Source: Rhodocyclales bacterium | GTDB lineage: Bacteria > Pseudomonadota > Gammaproteobacteria > Burkholderiales > Rhodocyclaceae | Length of the DNA: 64,000 nt | NCBI GenBank assembly: GCA_016214145.1 | Contig: JACRPA010000006.1 | Coordinates: forward strand, 186,001-250,000 | Reading direction: 5' to 3' | Part shown: positions 8,176 to 41,629 of the stretch, piece after piece | Layout: the number at the start of each line of letters is the position of its first letter | Numbering within the stretch: the first letter of the stretch is position 1 | Translations under genes and position numbers: made by a program | Notes under the pieces: model-generated | Seen by the model: only the letters and a program-made list of their open reading frames with translations | Database searches by the model: none | Told to the model about the DNA's origin: nothing

Positions 8176-8246
8176 CGTCATTCCCGCGAAAGCGGGAATC
8201 CAGTCGTACACGATGCCTCTGGATTCCCGCTTTCGCGGGAATGACG
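8176..8246. repeat. REPIN of the ATTCCC...GGGAAT family between livH and livM
   Basis: Two inverted 28-bp units (8176-8203 and 8219-8246) are separated by 15 bp. Each contains its own hairpin, ATTCCCGCGAAAGCGGGAAT or its complement. This is the same unit that brackets the GIY-YIG gene at 17.5-17.9 kb. Both arms are intact here. The element sits inside an operon, so it must tolerate read-through transcription. It resembles the neisserial dRS3 consensus (ATTCCC-N8-GGGAAT). Confidence 0.9.
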
Positions 8247-11474: not shown

Positions 11475-11547
11475 CGTCATTCCCGCGAAGGCGGGAATCC
11501 AGAGGCTGCGTGGATTCCGGGTCGCGCTTCGCTCGCCCGGAATGACG
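11475..11547. repeat. REPIN of the ATTCCC...GGGAAT family between thiolase and FadB genes
   Basis: An intact unit (11475-11502, CATTCCCGCGAAGGCGGGAA core) is followed by an inverted, diverged unit (11511-11547) with TGGATTCCGGG...CCCGGAATGACG. The same intact-plus-diverged arrangement recurs at 17881-17953, suggesting both arms evolve as a unit. It lies between two co-directional genes. Confidence 0.85.
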
Positions 11548-15853: not shown

Positions 15854-17236
15854 ATGAAAACCGTCCGCATCGGCGCCGGCCTCGGCTTCTACGGCGACTC
15901 GTGGCGGCCGGTGGCGGCGAGCATCGAGCGCGGCGGCGTGCAGTACATCGGCTCGGACCATCTTTCCGAGTTGACCCTGGCGATCCTGCAGAAGGACCGC
16001 ATGAAGGACCCGTCCGCCGGCTACACCCGCGACCTGCTGCCGATGCTGACGGCGCTGTGGCCGCTGGCGCAGAAGCACGGCGTGAAGTTCCTGCTGAACG
16101 CCGGCGGCCTCAACCCCGAGGGCGCGAGAGATGCCCTGGTCGCGGAATTCAACAAGCGCGGCTGGCAGGCGAAGATCGCCACCGTCACCGGTGACGCCGT
16201 GATCGATCGCATCGATACGCTGCGTGCGGCCGGCGAACCGCTAGCCCACCTCGACACCGGCGCGCCGATCGACAGCGTGCGCGAGCGGCTGCTCTTCGCC
16301 AACGCCTACCTGGGTGCGCAACCGCTGCTGCGGGCGCTGGAGAGCGGCGCCGACATCGTGCTGACCGGCCGCGTCGCCGACGCCGCACTATTCCTGGCGC
16401 CGCTGATCCACGAGTTCGGCTGGGCGGCGGACGACTGGGACCGCCTCGCCGCCGGCCTCACCGTCGGCCATCTTCTGGAGTGCTCGGGCCAGGGCAGCGG
16501 CGGCAACTTCAATTCCTATCTCGCCAACGGCTGGGAGTCGGTGCCCGACCTGGGGCACATCGGCTATCCCATCGCAGAAGTCAGTCCCGATGGCACGGCG
16601 ATCGTCACCAAGGCGCCGGACACCGGCGGGCGGGTGGACTTCGACACGGTGCGCCAGCAATTGCTCTACGAAGTGCACAACCCGCATGCGTATTTTTCAC
16701 CGGATGTCGTGCTCGACATGGGCACGCTCAAGCTCGACGATCTCGGTGGCGATCGCGTGCGCGTCAGCGGCGCCAGCGGCCGGCCGCGCCCGGAAAAGCT
16801 GAAGATCGTCGCCGGCTACGATGACGGCTGGGCCGGCACCGCCACCATCGGCTATTCCTGGCCCGGCGCCATGAAGAAGGCGCGCGCCACCGAGGCCATC
16901 GTGCGCCGGCAGCTTGCGGAGACGAAGCTTCAGTACGACGAGACCCACACCGAGTTCCTCGGCTATGATTCGCTGCTCGGCGACCTGGCCGACGATTCGC
17001 GCATCGAGGAACTCAACGAGGTGTACCTGAAGATGTCGGTGCGAGCGAAGGACCGCCGCCTGGCCGAGGCCTTCCCGCGCCAGTTCCCCTGGCTGGCGCT
17101 GTCCGGCCCGCCGACGGCGAGCGGCTTCTCCGGCATCGAGCCGGCGCGGCAGCTACTCGGCCTGTGGCCGACGCTGGTGCGGCGCGACCTCGTCGAGCCG
17201 GAAGTAAAAGTCAGTCTGCAGGAGACGGCGGCATGA
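15854..17236 (+). CDS. atuA: AtuA family protein (DUF1446, acyclic terpene utilisation)
   Basis: A 460-residue protein of the AtuA/DUF1446 family (RIGAGLGFYGDSWRPVAAS; LLNAGGLNPEGARDAL; LTGRVADAALFLAPL; LECSGQGSGGNF). AtuA is required for citronellol and geraniol catabolism in pseudomonads, but the biochemical reaction is unclear and family members occur in other acyl-CoA clusters. Here the usual C-terminal ferredoxin-like domain is a separate gene, overlapping by ATGA. The absence of a geranyl-CoA carboxylase in this window argues against calling the full Atu pathway. Confidence 0.88.
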   Translation: MKTVRIGAGLGFYGDSWRPVAASIERGGVQYIGSDHLSELTLAILQKDRMKDPSAGYTRDLLPMLTALWPLAQKHGVKFLLNAGGLNPEGARDALVAEFNKRGWQAKIATVTGDAVIDRIDTLRAAGEPLAHLDTGAPIDSVRERLLFANAYLGAQPLLRALESGADIVLTGRVADAALFLAPLIHEFGWAADDWDRLAAGLTVGHLLECSGQGSGGNFNSYLANGWESVPDLGHIGYPIAEVSPDGTAIVTKAPDTGGRVDFDTVRQQLLYEVHNPHAYFSPDVVLDMGTLKLDDLGGDRVRVSGASGRPRPEKLKIVAGYDDGWAGTATIGYSWPGAMKKARATEAIVRRQLAETKLQYDETHTEFLGYDSLLGDLADDSRIEELNEVYLKMSVRAKDRRLAEAFPRQFPWLALSGPPTASGFSGIEPARQLLGLWPTLVRRDLVEPEVKVSLQETAA

Positions 17237-17592
17237 AGCGGCGATTGGTGGACATCGCCCACGCCCGCAGCGGCGACAAGGGCGACCGCTGCGACCTCGG
17301 CCTGTTCGCGCCCGACGCGGCAACCTACGCCGTGCTGAAGCGCGAAGTCACGCCGGAGCGCATCGCGCGGCACTTCGCCGGCATGGCCAGCGGCCCGATC
17401 GAGCTGTATCCGCTCGACAACCTGCTGGCGCTGAAGATCGTGCTCAACGGCGCGCTGCAGGGCGGCGCGGCGCGTTCCCTGCGCAGCGACAATCTGGGAA
17501 AATGCGCCGCCGCGGCGTTGCTGCGCATGGAGATAGTGATACCACCGGATTTCGTCATTCCCGCGAAAGCGGGAATCCAGAACAATGCGTGA
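17233..17592 (+). CDS. AtuA-type ferredoxin-fold partner protein with repeat-derived C-terminus
   Basis: A 119-residue protein matching the C-terminal domain of long AtuA proteins (DIAHARSGDKGDRCDLGLFA). Its start overlaps the atuA stop as ATGA, so the two are translationally coupled. The native fold probably ends near residue 105. The last residues, FVIPAKAGIQNNA, are the translation of a palindromic repeat unit (17553-17580) that has replaced the original end of the gene. Function presumably follows AtuA. The stop codon overlaps the start region of the GIY-YIG gene. Confidence 0.85.
   Translation: MKRRLVDIAHARSGDKGDRCDLGLFAPDAATYAVLKREVTPERIARHFAGMASGPIELYPLDNLLALKIVLNGALQGGAARSLRSDNLGKCAAAALLRMEIVIPPDFVIPAKAGIQNNA
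17553..17580 (+). repeat. ATTCCC...GGGAAT unit upstream of the GIY-YIG gene
   Basis: A 28-bp unit with the hairpin ATTCCCGCGAAAGCGGGAAT, identical to the left unit at 8176-8203. It encodes FVIPAKAGIQ at the end of the AtuA partner and stops 4 bp before the GIY-YIG start codon. Confidence 0.9.
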
Positions 17593-17878
17593 AATGCGGC
17601 CATGCGTATATATCCTGGCAAGCAAGAGAAACGGCACGCTTTACATAGGTGTGACCAGCGACCTCCTCAAACGCGTCTGGGAGCACAAGAACAATCTGGT
17701 TGAGGGGTTCACGAAGAAGTACGCCGTGCATCGGCTTGTGTACTACGAGATGCTTGAGGATATGGAATCAGCCATCCAGCGCGAGAAGCAATTGAAGAAA
17801 TGGAATCGTGATTGGAAGATCGATTTGATCGAAAAGGACAACCCGGAATGGACCGATTTGCACGATTCGCTAATTTAA
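17585..17878 (+). CDS. Small GIY-YIG nuclease domain protein
   Basis: A 97-residue single-domain protein of the GIY-YIG superfamily (YhbQ/UPF0213-like). The core reads YIL (9-11), then YIG (20-22), Arg30 and His34, followed by the helix with REKQLKKWNR, so the catalytic residues seem intact. Start is the first ATG at 17585, with an alternative Met at residue 4. Its base composition is lower in GC than its neighbours. It lies between palindromic repeats of one family and interrupts the atuA operon. A nuclease acting on those hairpins is a plausible role, but this is inference; the cellular role of small GIY-YIG proteins is generally poorly known. Confidence 0.85.
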   Translation: MREMRPCVYILASKRNGTLYIGVTSDLLKRVWEHKNNLVEGFTKKYAVHRLVYYEMLEDMESAIQREKQLKKWNRDWKIDLIEKDNPEWTDLHDSLI

Positions 17879-17880
17879 CT

Positions 17881-17953
17881 CGTCATTCCCGCGAACGCGG
17901 GAATCCAGCAACAACCTGGATTCCGGGTTCCGCTTCGCGGCCCCGGAATGACG
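17881..17953. repeat. REPIN downstream of the GIY-YIG gene
   Basis: An intact unit (17881-17908, ATTCCCGCGAACGCGGGAAT) is followed by an inverted diverged unit (17916-17953, TGGATTCCGGG...CCCCGGAATGACG). The ATG in the terminal GGAATGACG is the first possible start of the following enoyl-CoA hydratase gene. Confidence 0.88.
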
Positions 17954-18736
17954 GCAAATTACGGTGACGAAGTGAACGTCCGCATCGAAAAGAAGGACCG
18001 CGTCACCACGGTGATCCTCGACCGCCCGCAGAAGCGCAACGCCGTCGACCGGCCGACGGCCACGGCGCTGGCCGAGGCCTTCCGCGCCTTCGAGGCCGAT
18101 CCCGAATCGGATGTCGCCGTGCTGTGGGGCGCGGGCGGACACTTCTGCGCCGGCGCCGACCTGCAGGGCTTCGCCGGCGAGGCGACGCGCAACAGCCTCT
18201 CGCCGGAAGGCGACGGGCCGATGGGGCCGACGCGCATGCTGCTGTCGAAGCCGGTGATCGCTGCCGTCTCCGGCTACTGCGTCGCCGGCGGACTGGAGCT
18301 GGCTTGCTGGTGCGACCTGCGCGTGGCGGAGCGGAGCGCAGTGTTCGGCGTTTTCTGCCGCCGCTTCGGCGTGCCGCTCATCGACGGCGGCACGCTGCGG
18401 CTGCCGCGGCTGATCGGCCAGTCGCGCGCGCTCGACATGATCCTCACCGGCCGGCCGGTCGGCGCCGAGGAGGCGCTGGCGATGGGGCTGGCCAACCGCG
18501 TCGTCGCCGACGGCGCGGCGCGCGCAGCGGCCGAGGCGCTGGCGGCGGAATTGGTGCGATACCCGCAGGCCTGCCTGCGCCACGACCGGCTGTCCAGCTA
18601 CGAACAATGGAGCCTGCCGCTGCCGCAGGCCATGGCAAACGAGTTCAAACACGGCCAGGCGACACTGGAAAGCGGCGAATGGCTGGCAGGCGCCGCCCGC
18701 TTCGGCAAGGGGGAAGGAAAACATGGCGCGTTCTGA
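17948..18736 (+). CDS. Enoyl-CoA hydratase / isomerase family protein
   Basis: A 262-residue crotonase. The oxyanion-hole segments are GAGGHFCAGADLQGF and SGYCVAGGLELACW. The position where classical hydratases carry a catalytic Glu reads CRRFGVPLIDGG, so the exact reaction is uncertain. The ATG at 17948 lies inside the flanking REPIN; a GTG eight codons downstream (17972, reading VNVRIEKKDRV) fits family N-termini better and may be the ancestral start. It overlaps the following tetR by 14 bp. Confidence 0.88.
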   Translation: MTANYGDEVNVRIEKKDRVTTVILDRPQKRNAVDRPTATALAEAFRAFEADPESDVAVLWGAGGHFCAGADLQGFAGEATRNSLSPEGDGPMGPTRMLLSKPVIAAVSGYCVAGGLELACWCDLRVAERSAVFGVFCRRFGVPLIDGGTLRLPRLIGQSRALDMILTGRPVGAEEALAMGLANRVVADGAARAAAEALAAELVRYPQACLRHDRLSSYEQWSLPLPQAMANEFKHGQATLESGEWLAGAARFGKGEGKHGAF

Positions 18737-40924: not shown

Positions 40925-41018
40925 GTCGGGCTGAAGCCCGACCTACATGGGTATCGCACACGTAGGTCGGCCTTCAGGCCGACACCAACCGCCCAAGTCG
41001 GCCTGAAGGCCGACCTAC
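40925..41018. repeat. REP units downstream of tolC
   Basis: Type A inverted (40925-40946), type B (40962-40983) and type B inverted (40997-41018). They stand between the convergent tolC and RAYT genes. Confidence 0.93.
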
Positions 41019-41024
41019 GAAGGG

Positions 41025-41474
41025 TCACAGCCAGACCGCATCCCAGTGCGGGTACTCCGCCAGCGATTCAACCAGCCCCGCACGCAACGGATTGGCCACG
41101 ATATAGCGGGCTATTTCGTGCAGATCCTCCTCCTTGCGCAAAGCATGGTCGTGAAATGCGGCCTGCCACAGCGCGCCACTCTGGTTCAAATATTGGTTGA
41201 TCAGACGGCCGCTGCGGCCTTTCAGCAAGCCGATCATCTTCGCGAGGGCCACGTTGTCCCCCAGTTGGAACAGCCAATGCAGATGGTCCGGCATGACGAC
41301 CCACGCCAGAGAACTGACCATCCCGCCATGGTGAAGGACGCGCATTTCCTGAACCAATAGTCTGGCTATCCGGAGGTCCGCGAAAACCGGGCGTCTTCCT
41401 CGAATAACAGCGGTAACGAAGTAGGCGCGGCTCGGTTCGGAGACCCTGCCCTTGCGGAGTGCGTTGTAGGTCAT
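41025..41474 (-). CDS. REP-associated tyrosine transposase (RAYT, IS200-like)
   Basis: A 149-residue Y1 transposase domain. The HUH motif is WVVMPDHLHWLF (His64, His66). The C-terminal signature ARYIVANPLRAGLV contains Tyr124, the likely catalytic residue, and AYFVTAVIRGRRPVF opens the fold. RAYTs bind REP hairpins, with GTAG at the foot, as single-stranded DNA and nick them. Seven such REP units flank this gene, so it is probably the agent of the family seen here. It appears intact. The gene is read toward tolC. Confidence 0.93.
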   Translation of the reverse strand: MTYNALRKGRVSEPSRAYFVTAVIRGRRPVFADLRIARLLVQEMRVLHHGGMVSSLAWVVMPDHLHWLFQLGDNVALAKMIGLLKGRSGRLINQYLNQSGALWQAAFHDHALRKEEDLHEIARYIVANPLRAGLVESLAEYPHWDAVWL

Positions 41475-41492
41475 GCAGGGCTTAACGTTTGT

Positions 41493-41629
41493 GTCGGCCT
41501 GAAGGCCGACCTACAGAGGGGTTTAGAGGGCTTGTAGGTCGGGCTTCAGCCCGACAACAGCCGCCGAAGTCGGCCTGAAGGCCGACCTACCAGACAGTCT
41601 TTCCCCTGTAGGTCGGCCTTCAGGCCGAC
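41493..41629. repeat. REP units between RAYT and waaA
   Basis: Type B inverted (41493-41514), type A (41534-41555), type B inverted (41569-41590) and type B (41608-41629). The waaA stop codon TGA (41620-41622, minus strand) is inside the last unit. Confidence 0.93.

Follow-up and report, generated by a model that had tools for sequence, protein, structure and literature searches.

The window (the whole 64,000-nt stretch of DNA analysed here) contains three consecutive genes on the forward strand. The first is an ORF with an AtuA ferredoxin-like domain (17233..17592; Pfam PF23544, 84.2 bits on 17233-17550; the ORF list gives its frame from a GTG at 17164), the second encodes a 97-aa single-domain GIY-YIG nuclease (17585..17878; ORF list and Pfam), and the third a crotonase/enoyl-CoA hydratase (17948..18736). 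The GIY-YIG gene lies in a candidate element of 399 bp (17554..17952, forward strand) that runs from an outer GTC to an outer GAC. On its left is a CGTC-type palindrome of 27 nt (17554..17580, forward strand), which in DNA folding forms an 8-bp stem with a 4-nt loop, leaving GTC unpaired on the outside and a CCAG tail on the gene side; its single-strand fold of -9.0 kcal/mol was matched in stability by 0/200 shuffles. The GIY-YIG ATG follows 4 bases 3' of this palindrome, and 3 bases past the stop begins a 71-nt heterodimer (17882-17952), composed of a direct copy of the left unit in the same orientation (17882..17908, forward strand; 97% over 29 nt), 7 bp, and an inverted unit with a divergent, longer stem (17916..17952, reverse strand) whose outer GAC ends the module. 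The 3' end of the upstream ORF enters the left palindrome and the first bases of the called hydratase ORF lie in the right one, so that the palindromes supply protein ends: the upstream ORF terminates in VIPAKAGIQNNA (17550-17592), and the called hydratase start is at 17948.

An earlier sequence-only reading of this DNA had described a GIY-YIG gene between palindromic repeats, and this arrangement is real, given the 97-residue ORF, its Pfam GIY-YIG match (63.7 bits against a cut-off of 22.6, the sole domain found) and the palindrome units on both sides. Exact ATTCCC-N8-GGGAAT sites lie where that reading placed them, at 8180, 8223, 11479, 17557, and 17885, and the nuclease-free copies it had noted are present as gene-free pairs at 8177-8245 and 11476-11546. 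The former is an inverted, REPIN-like pair of the module's CGTC family (forward strand; fold -36.4 kcal/mol, z -12.8), and the latter a heterodimer of the same kind as that at 17882-17952 (forward strand; pattern and fold). Shuffles of the window contain a mean of 0.01 exact sites and none reached the observed five; with two mismatches allowed, the window count is weak, being reached by 7/100 shuffles. The window's own genome holds 75 exact sites versus 0 for the reversed pattern.

This repeat fits the published CGTC superfamily of REPs. As described in the available text of Di Nocera et al. (2013, PMC3733652), CGTC-tagged REPs possess a CGTC or TGTC tag, an 8-9 bp stem starting AT, a 4-5 nt loop and a CCA tail, and occur mostly as head-to-head dimers; the superfamily includes dRS3 of Neisseria and RPE-6 and RPE-4 of Rickettsia. 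The same text reports no associated transposase gene, and the count of the term GIY-YIG in it is zero. The tag, 8-9 bp stem, short loop and CCA tail are found in the window units and in 56 modules flanked left and right by strict palindromes (median length 401 bp); GTC and CCA were preset in the latter, so that the C/T preceding GTC and the AT at the start of the stem are the features tested there. The window's module stands outside those 56 because its right stem is divergent. Head-to-head dimers are present in the window, and a repeat listing contains many additional plus/minus neighbors. In the left palindrome of L048, compared with that of L025, and also in L019, L024, L049, L054, and L064, a second hairpin of approximately 27 nt lies within the loop, as if palindrome loops were insertion points. 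GIY-YIG genes of lower identity (L165, L168, L172, L173, and L290) lie among GTCATTGCGAG-, GTCATCCCGAG- or GTCATTCTGAG-type repeats, so that the system may include further palindrome families. At position 1501 of L283 (N. gonorrhoeae, filed as a plasmid) there is an open GIY-YIG copy of 64% identity with dRS3-type repeats nearby; this copy is unannotated in the plasmid collection, and at 2.17 Mb the record is probably a chromosome with the wrong label.

Homologues of the GIY-YIG protein were gathered by protein sequence alone, comprising 80 of 325 GTDB relatives, many from metagenome-assembled genomes, and 53 loci read from an order-level search that matched 50/250 genomes at E 1e-8. Of 133 loci in this first flank set, 128 were usable, five being dropped for contig ends or N runs; a second set drawn from a phylum sample provided 65 usable loci of 66. 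ORFs throughout are simple longest-frame calls, and control ORFs were at least 60 aa long. A strict CGTC palindrome lies within 150 bp of 101/128 GIY-YIG loci versus 38/286 other ORFs of the same loci, and palindromes bracket the gene in inverted orientation at 46/128 loci versus 3/286 controls. Small control ORFs (60-150 aa) give 17/148 on either side and 1/148 for the bracket, and only 1/1280 shuffled flanks contained any strict palindrome. Removing eight duplicate or window-insertion loci leaves 93/120 with a palindrome on either side and 41/120 with a bracket. In the second sample the strict palindrome is found at 47/65 loci versus 11/57 controls, and the bracket at 24/65 versus 0/57. The sequence-only reading would have been undermined by homologues lacking flanking repeats as a rule; they carry them at these rates, well above those of control ORFs.

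The strict palindrome is missing at 27/128 loci. A looser definition (GTC[AG][TC]...C[CT]) detects palindromes at 120/128 and 57/65 loci versus 67/286 and 20/57 controls, with a higher chance rate of 62/1290 shuffles. By these counts a variant palindrome is present at most loci where the strict one is missing, with stems such as TTGCGAG, CCCGAG, and TTTCGAC. Four of eight loci from the plasmid collection have the strict form; of the other four (L285, L286, L288, and L290), L288 and L290 have variant palindromes and none was seen in L286. A comparison free of any motif gave inverted flank matches of at least 11 bp at 72/127 GIY-YIG loci versus 10/271 controls, and direct flank matches of at least 11 bp are also common (49/127 versus 17/271). 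Palindromes that collect in any intergenic gap would place some near any gene, as at the 38/286 control ORFs above, and this could in principle produce the association as an artefact; the bracket counts and the small-ORF controls, together with the motif-free comparison and the second sample, disfavour chance or intergenic clustering so strongly that we give this explanation hardly any credence. A GIY-YIG gene bracketed by matched palindromes is a real and general arrangement that occurs across many phyla.

The two palindromes of a locus resemble each other more closely than they resemble those of other loci. Left and right stems are identical over eight bases at 59 of the 92 loci with both ends read, among which there are 42 different left stems, and the mean mismatch between left and right is 0.77 versus 2.47 when shuffled (0/5000 as low). 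In ten genomes with several readable copies, stem mismatch is 0.19 within loci (n=16) and 1.58 between loci (n=19). Paralogues in one genome mostly have different stems, as in G125 (CCCGGC, CCCCGC, and TCCCGC), whereas the copies within each of G384, G529, and G490 share a stem or nearly so. Stem similarity follows protein identity (Mantel r -0.36, n=149, 0/2000), and when the nearest protein comes from a different host family the stem mismatch is 1.87 versus 2.65 in permutations (0/5000). Cross-phylum co-variation among the named GTDB loci alone is not significant, with 261/2000 permutations as extreme; these loci are dominated by one stem, and the protein tree, built on 95 columns, has many open forks. 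Overall, palindrome sequence varies with the GIY-YIG protein.

The module also splits an otherwise coupled operon, as had been proposed from the window alone. In G317 and G259, two genomes of the same genus, the AtuA ferredoxin-like gene and the hydratase gene are directly adjacent or overlap, and neither module nor palindrome lies there. The upstream ORF of the window gains a repeat-encoded tail, and ends in MEIDT or MEIET in genomes without the module. In the outgroup loci L197-L199 the upstream protein has a similarly short C-terminus; that of L196 is longer, yet it has no module, and the insertion point therefore cannot be placed to the base. Seven loci (the window's copy L093, L013-L017, and L052) represent one operon insertion. 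One of them, L017, is labelled Bacteroidia and carries the Rhodocyclaceae operon; labels of metagenome-assembled genomes can be wrong.

Alignment of 23 sequences, the window's included, shows invariant Y9, Y20, G22, R30, H34, E67, and N86, which supply the two Tyr motifs, the central Arg, the later Glu and the Asn, present in some lineages, of the GIY-YIG superfamily. The invariant set is in line with the superfamily motifs as given in the accessible portion of PMC1564403. An AlphaFold2 model of the protein is confident (mean pLDDT 91). A Foldseek search of this model against the PDB returned nothing at E 0.001 or below; UPF0213, Slx1, and the UvrC N-domain are among its best rows, with I-TevI lower in the list. 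The nearest GIY-YIG structure by sequence, which is also first by fold, is 1zg2 (UPF0213) at 26% identity, and the lowest E-value in the PDB sequence search belongs to a WD-40 protein chain, 2ymu, in which no single stretch passes alone. The protein thus resembles the small UPF0213/COG2827-like GIY-YIG proteins in being a single domain of approximately 95 aa, but is only distantly related to them. Domain profiles find GIY-YIG only, with no HUH tyrosine transposase domain. No PADLOC family matched, so a defence gene is disfavoured, and phage carriage is likewise disfavoured by 50,697 phage records without a match at E 1e-10. Plasmid records matching the protein number 31, several of which look like chromosomes by length.

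The window-type copies represent orthologous insertions and evolve under purifying selection: dN/dS is 0.05-0.13 in 14/15 pairs, one pair not being estimable, at synonymous divergences of approximately 0.6 to 2 that bring synonymous sites near saturation. A host function would explain a low dN/dS at a fixed site just as well. The gene may then encode a host structure-specific nuclease that resolves or trims hairpins and cruciforms, with the flanking palindromes regulating it or hitching along. The best Foldseek rows, none of which reaches E 0.001, would agree with such a role, as would the SOS box at one of three C. crescentus COG2827 genes mentioned in the accessible portion of PMC1839093. 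The presence of the gene is patchy, however: it is found in 7/16 genomes of the window's genus and, defining the clade gene as a match at E 1e-20, in 42/250 genomes of the order, the window's own genome included. Near relatives also occur in unrelated contexts, and broken copies exist. We consider the host-nuclease reading improbable. The broken copies (L295, L057, L111, and L163) carry a single-base deletion or an in-frame stop, as expected of mobile-element turnover.

The number of palindromes in a genome was compared with the presence of the clade gene in tables for the order, the phylum and within genera, compiled by hand from separate search outputs. By a CGTC pattern that covers only some stems, at least two units are counted in 29/42 order genomes with the clade gene versus 24/208 without (OR 17), and 926/1314 of the counted units fall in those 42 genomes. 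For 365 genomes of the phylum outside the order, the corresponding figures are 46/96 and 27/269 (OR 8.2). In the window's genus, the median number of units is 70 with the gene (n=7) versus 5 without (n=9; p 0.0007), a comparison to which the window's own genome and several incomplete ones contribute; restricting it to genomes at least 90% complete leaves 4 versus 3 (p 0.029). Within-genus contrasts for 18 genera of the order are positive in 13, opposite in three and tied in two (13/16 informative, p 0.021).

Repeats also occur without the gene. Sixteen order genomes have at least five CGTC units yet no clade gene, and when 14 gene-less genomes (11 repeat-rich, three of the same genus) were rechecked at E 1e-3, nine gave no match. 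The match-free, repeat-rich genomes include G372 (155 copies), G218 (90), and G496 (114; 75% complete); in the other five rechecked genomes, frames of 91 to 1030 aa matched at E 6e-16 to 3e-6. Conversely, the counted pattern is absent from 10/42 clade genomes of the order and 45/96 of the phylum sample. Thus, of the sequence-only reading's condition that an abundant repeat in gene-less genomes together with no copy-number correlation would speak against it, the first half is seen in 16 genomes, while the correlation itself stands. Neither this check nor that on flanking repeats refuted the sequence-only reading, which is supported, and which is broadened by the place of the repeat in the CGTC superfamily and by the co-variation of palindrome and protein.

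Genes of the Y1_Tnp (RAYT) type are the known partners to be considered for such palindromes. Their presence also correlates with the repeats, more weakly across the order (OR 3.8), and in genomes without the GIY-YIG clade at OR 5.6 (p 0.016, at least five units). Since Y1_Tnp genes are present in 34/42 clade genomes, the GIY-YIG gene might be a small passenger caught between palindromes mobilised by a RAYT or other transposase. We inspected 50 Y1_Tnp genes, three from the window's own genome, 30 top-scoring ones (probably of IS200 type) and 17 hand-picked mainly from CGTC-repeat genomes, and a strict CGTC palindrome lies near 0/50; the looser palindrome is found at 4/42, and inverted flank matches of at least 11 bp at 9/39. 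On flanks, a RAYT is therefore disfavoured as the partner of CGTC palindromes. The same GIY-YIG gene, with co-varying palindromes, moreover recurs across phyla, and the RAYT in the window is itself flanked left and right by GTAG palindromes, which together make the passenger explanation very unlikely. That RAYT-like gene (41025-41474, reverse strand; Y1_Tnp 41.9 bits on 41028-41474) is bracketed within 40925-41629 by GTAG-tagged GTAGGTCGGCCTTCAGGCCGAC units within approximately 20 bases of both ends, and with 16 GTAG-tagged units in total the window holds both systems, GTAG-REP/RAYT and CGTC/GIY-YIG. Ten other GIY-YIG loci from the window's own and repeat-rich genomes were also read; the ORF could be delimited in six, with a palindrome near 0/6.

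Comparison of related modules provides signs of movement. In unrelated surroundings, L160 and L161, and likewise L030 and L109, share sequence essentially from palindrome to palindrome. In the Nitrospirota loci L059, L080, and L092 the shared stretch reaches approximately 100 bp upstream of the left palindrome, an extension that is possibly a promoter or part of a larger element. Among Sphingobium plasmids, the module is present in L288, L295, and L296; at its place L294 has one symmetric palindrome made up of the left outer arm, the right loop and the right outer arm, L292 has a degenerate palindrome, and L293 and L297 have other sequence. Symmetric palindromes are rare among the loci (6 versus 457 asymmetric), and for this reason that of L294 looks like a collapsed module or dimer; alternatively it may be a site for insertion, and it is suggestive either way. 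Sinorhizobium L285/L291, considered as an empty site from its span, was rejected as both carry the gene. In three Shinella relatives the corresponding position has neither the gene nor palindromes, but the gap has diverged too far to define a junction to the base. For the Rhizobium tumorigenes copy, the eight records compared that span most of the stretch are all annotated with the gene (157 others lay outside the comparison), and Rhizobium CIAT894 offered no usable empty site. Terminal inverted repeats, a trait of insertion sequences, are present as judged by flank matches, stems and the 56 modules, and no exact abutting target duplication was found at 53/56 modules.

Several of these features would also follow from homing, in which palindromes that spread by other means are the target and a free-standing GIY-YIG homing endonuclease is copied into them by double-strand-break repair. 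The GIY-YIG domain was first identified in homing endonucleases, according to the accessible portion of PMC1564403, and homing and intron endonuclease profiles match the protein weakly (PHROG 22.6 bits; NCBIfam 21 bits, below its cut-off of 56). Entry of the gene into a former dimer would by itself yield matched ends, target duplications would be lacking, and the lone palindrome of Sphingobium L294 lies exactly at the module's place. On the other hand, the operon site of G317 and G259 offers no palindrome to home into, a rise in palindrome copy number with the gene is not predicted by homing alone, and the protein, at 97 aa with the GIY-YIG domain alone in Pfam, lacks a NUMOD-type or C-terminal targeting domain. 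Homing explains only part of the data, because the palindrome-free operon site and the copy-number link are left over, and we regard it as a possible but rather unlikely account.

We favour the reading that the module belongs to a family of minimal mobile elements, each consisting of a GIY-YIG gene and two inverted CGTC-type palindromes that would serve as its ends and recognition sites, and assign it a probability of roughly 0.6. Comparison shows the layout, the matched and co-varying ends, related modules at unrelated sites, presence and absence at one site, and purifying selection; from these we infer recognition and cleavage of the palindromes by the GIY-YIG enzyme and movement driven by that cleavage. 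The nuclease would recognise its own stem, either in a hairpin formed by single-stranded DNA or in a cruciform, and cut at or near it; host repair and replication would then bring the palindrome-ended DNA to other sites, by copying or insertion, leaving no target duplication. GIY-YIG enzymes are hydrolases that are not known to carry out strand transfer, which weighs against the reading; the lack of target duplications fits an enzyme not known to join strands. The gene-free pairs would be non-autonomous derivatives of the element, comparable to the REPINs of RAYT systems and the MITEs of insertion sequences.

Such an element shares much with the RAYT/REP and REPIN systems (REPtrons). In both, palindromes dispersed in the genome bracket a nuclease gene, the repeats are of REP type and carry an unpaired tag, inverted dimers and copies lacking the gene occur, and particular genes pair with particular repeats. 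Unlike the module, with its GIY-YIG enzyme and CGTC/TGTC tag, those systems use an HUH tyrosine transposase and a GTAG tag. The enzyme being unrelated to HUH transposases, the palindromes, if mobilised, would be mobilised by a different kind of system, one working like RAYT/REP but not belonging to it. IS200/IS605 elements are similar in being short, with one small enzyme, hairpins near both ends and no known target duplication, and different in their HUH enzyme and a length of approximately 0.7 kb versus 0.4 kb. With GIY-YIG homing endonucleases of the I-TevI type the module has in common the catalytic domain and selfish-looking behaviour; unlike them, it has palindromic ends, and no intron or NUMOD-type domain was seen in it. 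Tag, stem, loop, CCA tail and head-to-head dimers are those of the CGTC-tagged REPs, which in the available text of PMC3733652 lacked a gene pairing, and the pairing with GIY-YIG is the new part. Both the repeat and the GIY-YIG domain were known before, and the analogy with RAYTs is likewise not new. Among the matches listed in open-licence PMC, none links GIY-YIG to REP palindromes; an earlier report of the pairing under another name, such as UvrC-like or URI domain, is possible.

In conclusion, CGTC-type palindromes are widespread in bacteria, and the paper that defined them, in its available text, left their mover open (PMC3733652). The sequence comparisons presented here make the GIY-YIG gene a strong candidate for the driver, so far missing, of the spread of CGTC repeats. 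Whether there is a whole class of transposable elements with a GIY-YIG protein of 90-100 aa as sole enzyme and no strand-transferring transposase, driving dRS3, RPE, and related CGTC-type palindromes and probably additional ones of the GTCAT..ATC type, we regard as an evenly balanced proposition; at approximately 0.4 kb, its members would be among the smallest autonomous elements known. A dedicated gene with co-varying ends makes the question of the mover testable with short oligonucleotides and a 97-residue protein. If the reading of the module as a mobile element is true, it would provide a role for many small GIY-YIG genes annotated as hypothetical or UvrC-like, represent a second, independent solution to hairpin mobilisation beside the HUH enzymes, and furnish very compact hairpin-directed nucleases.
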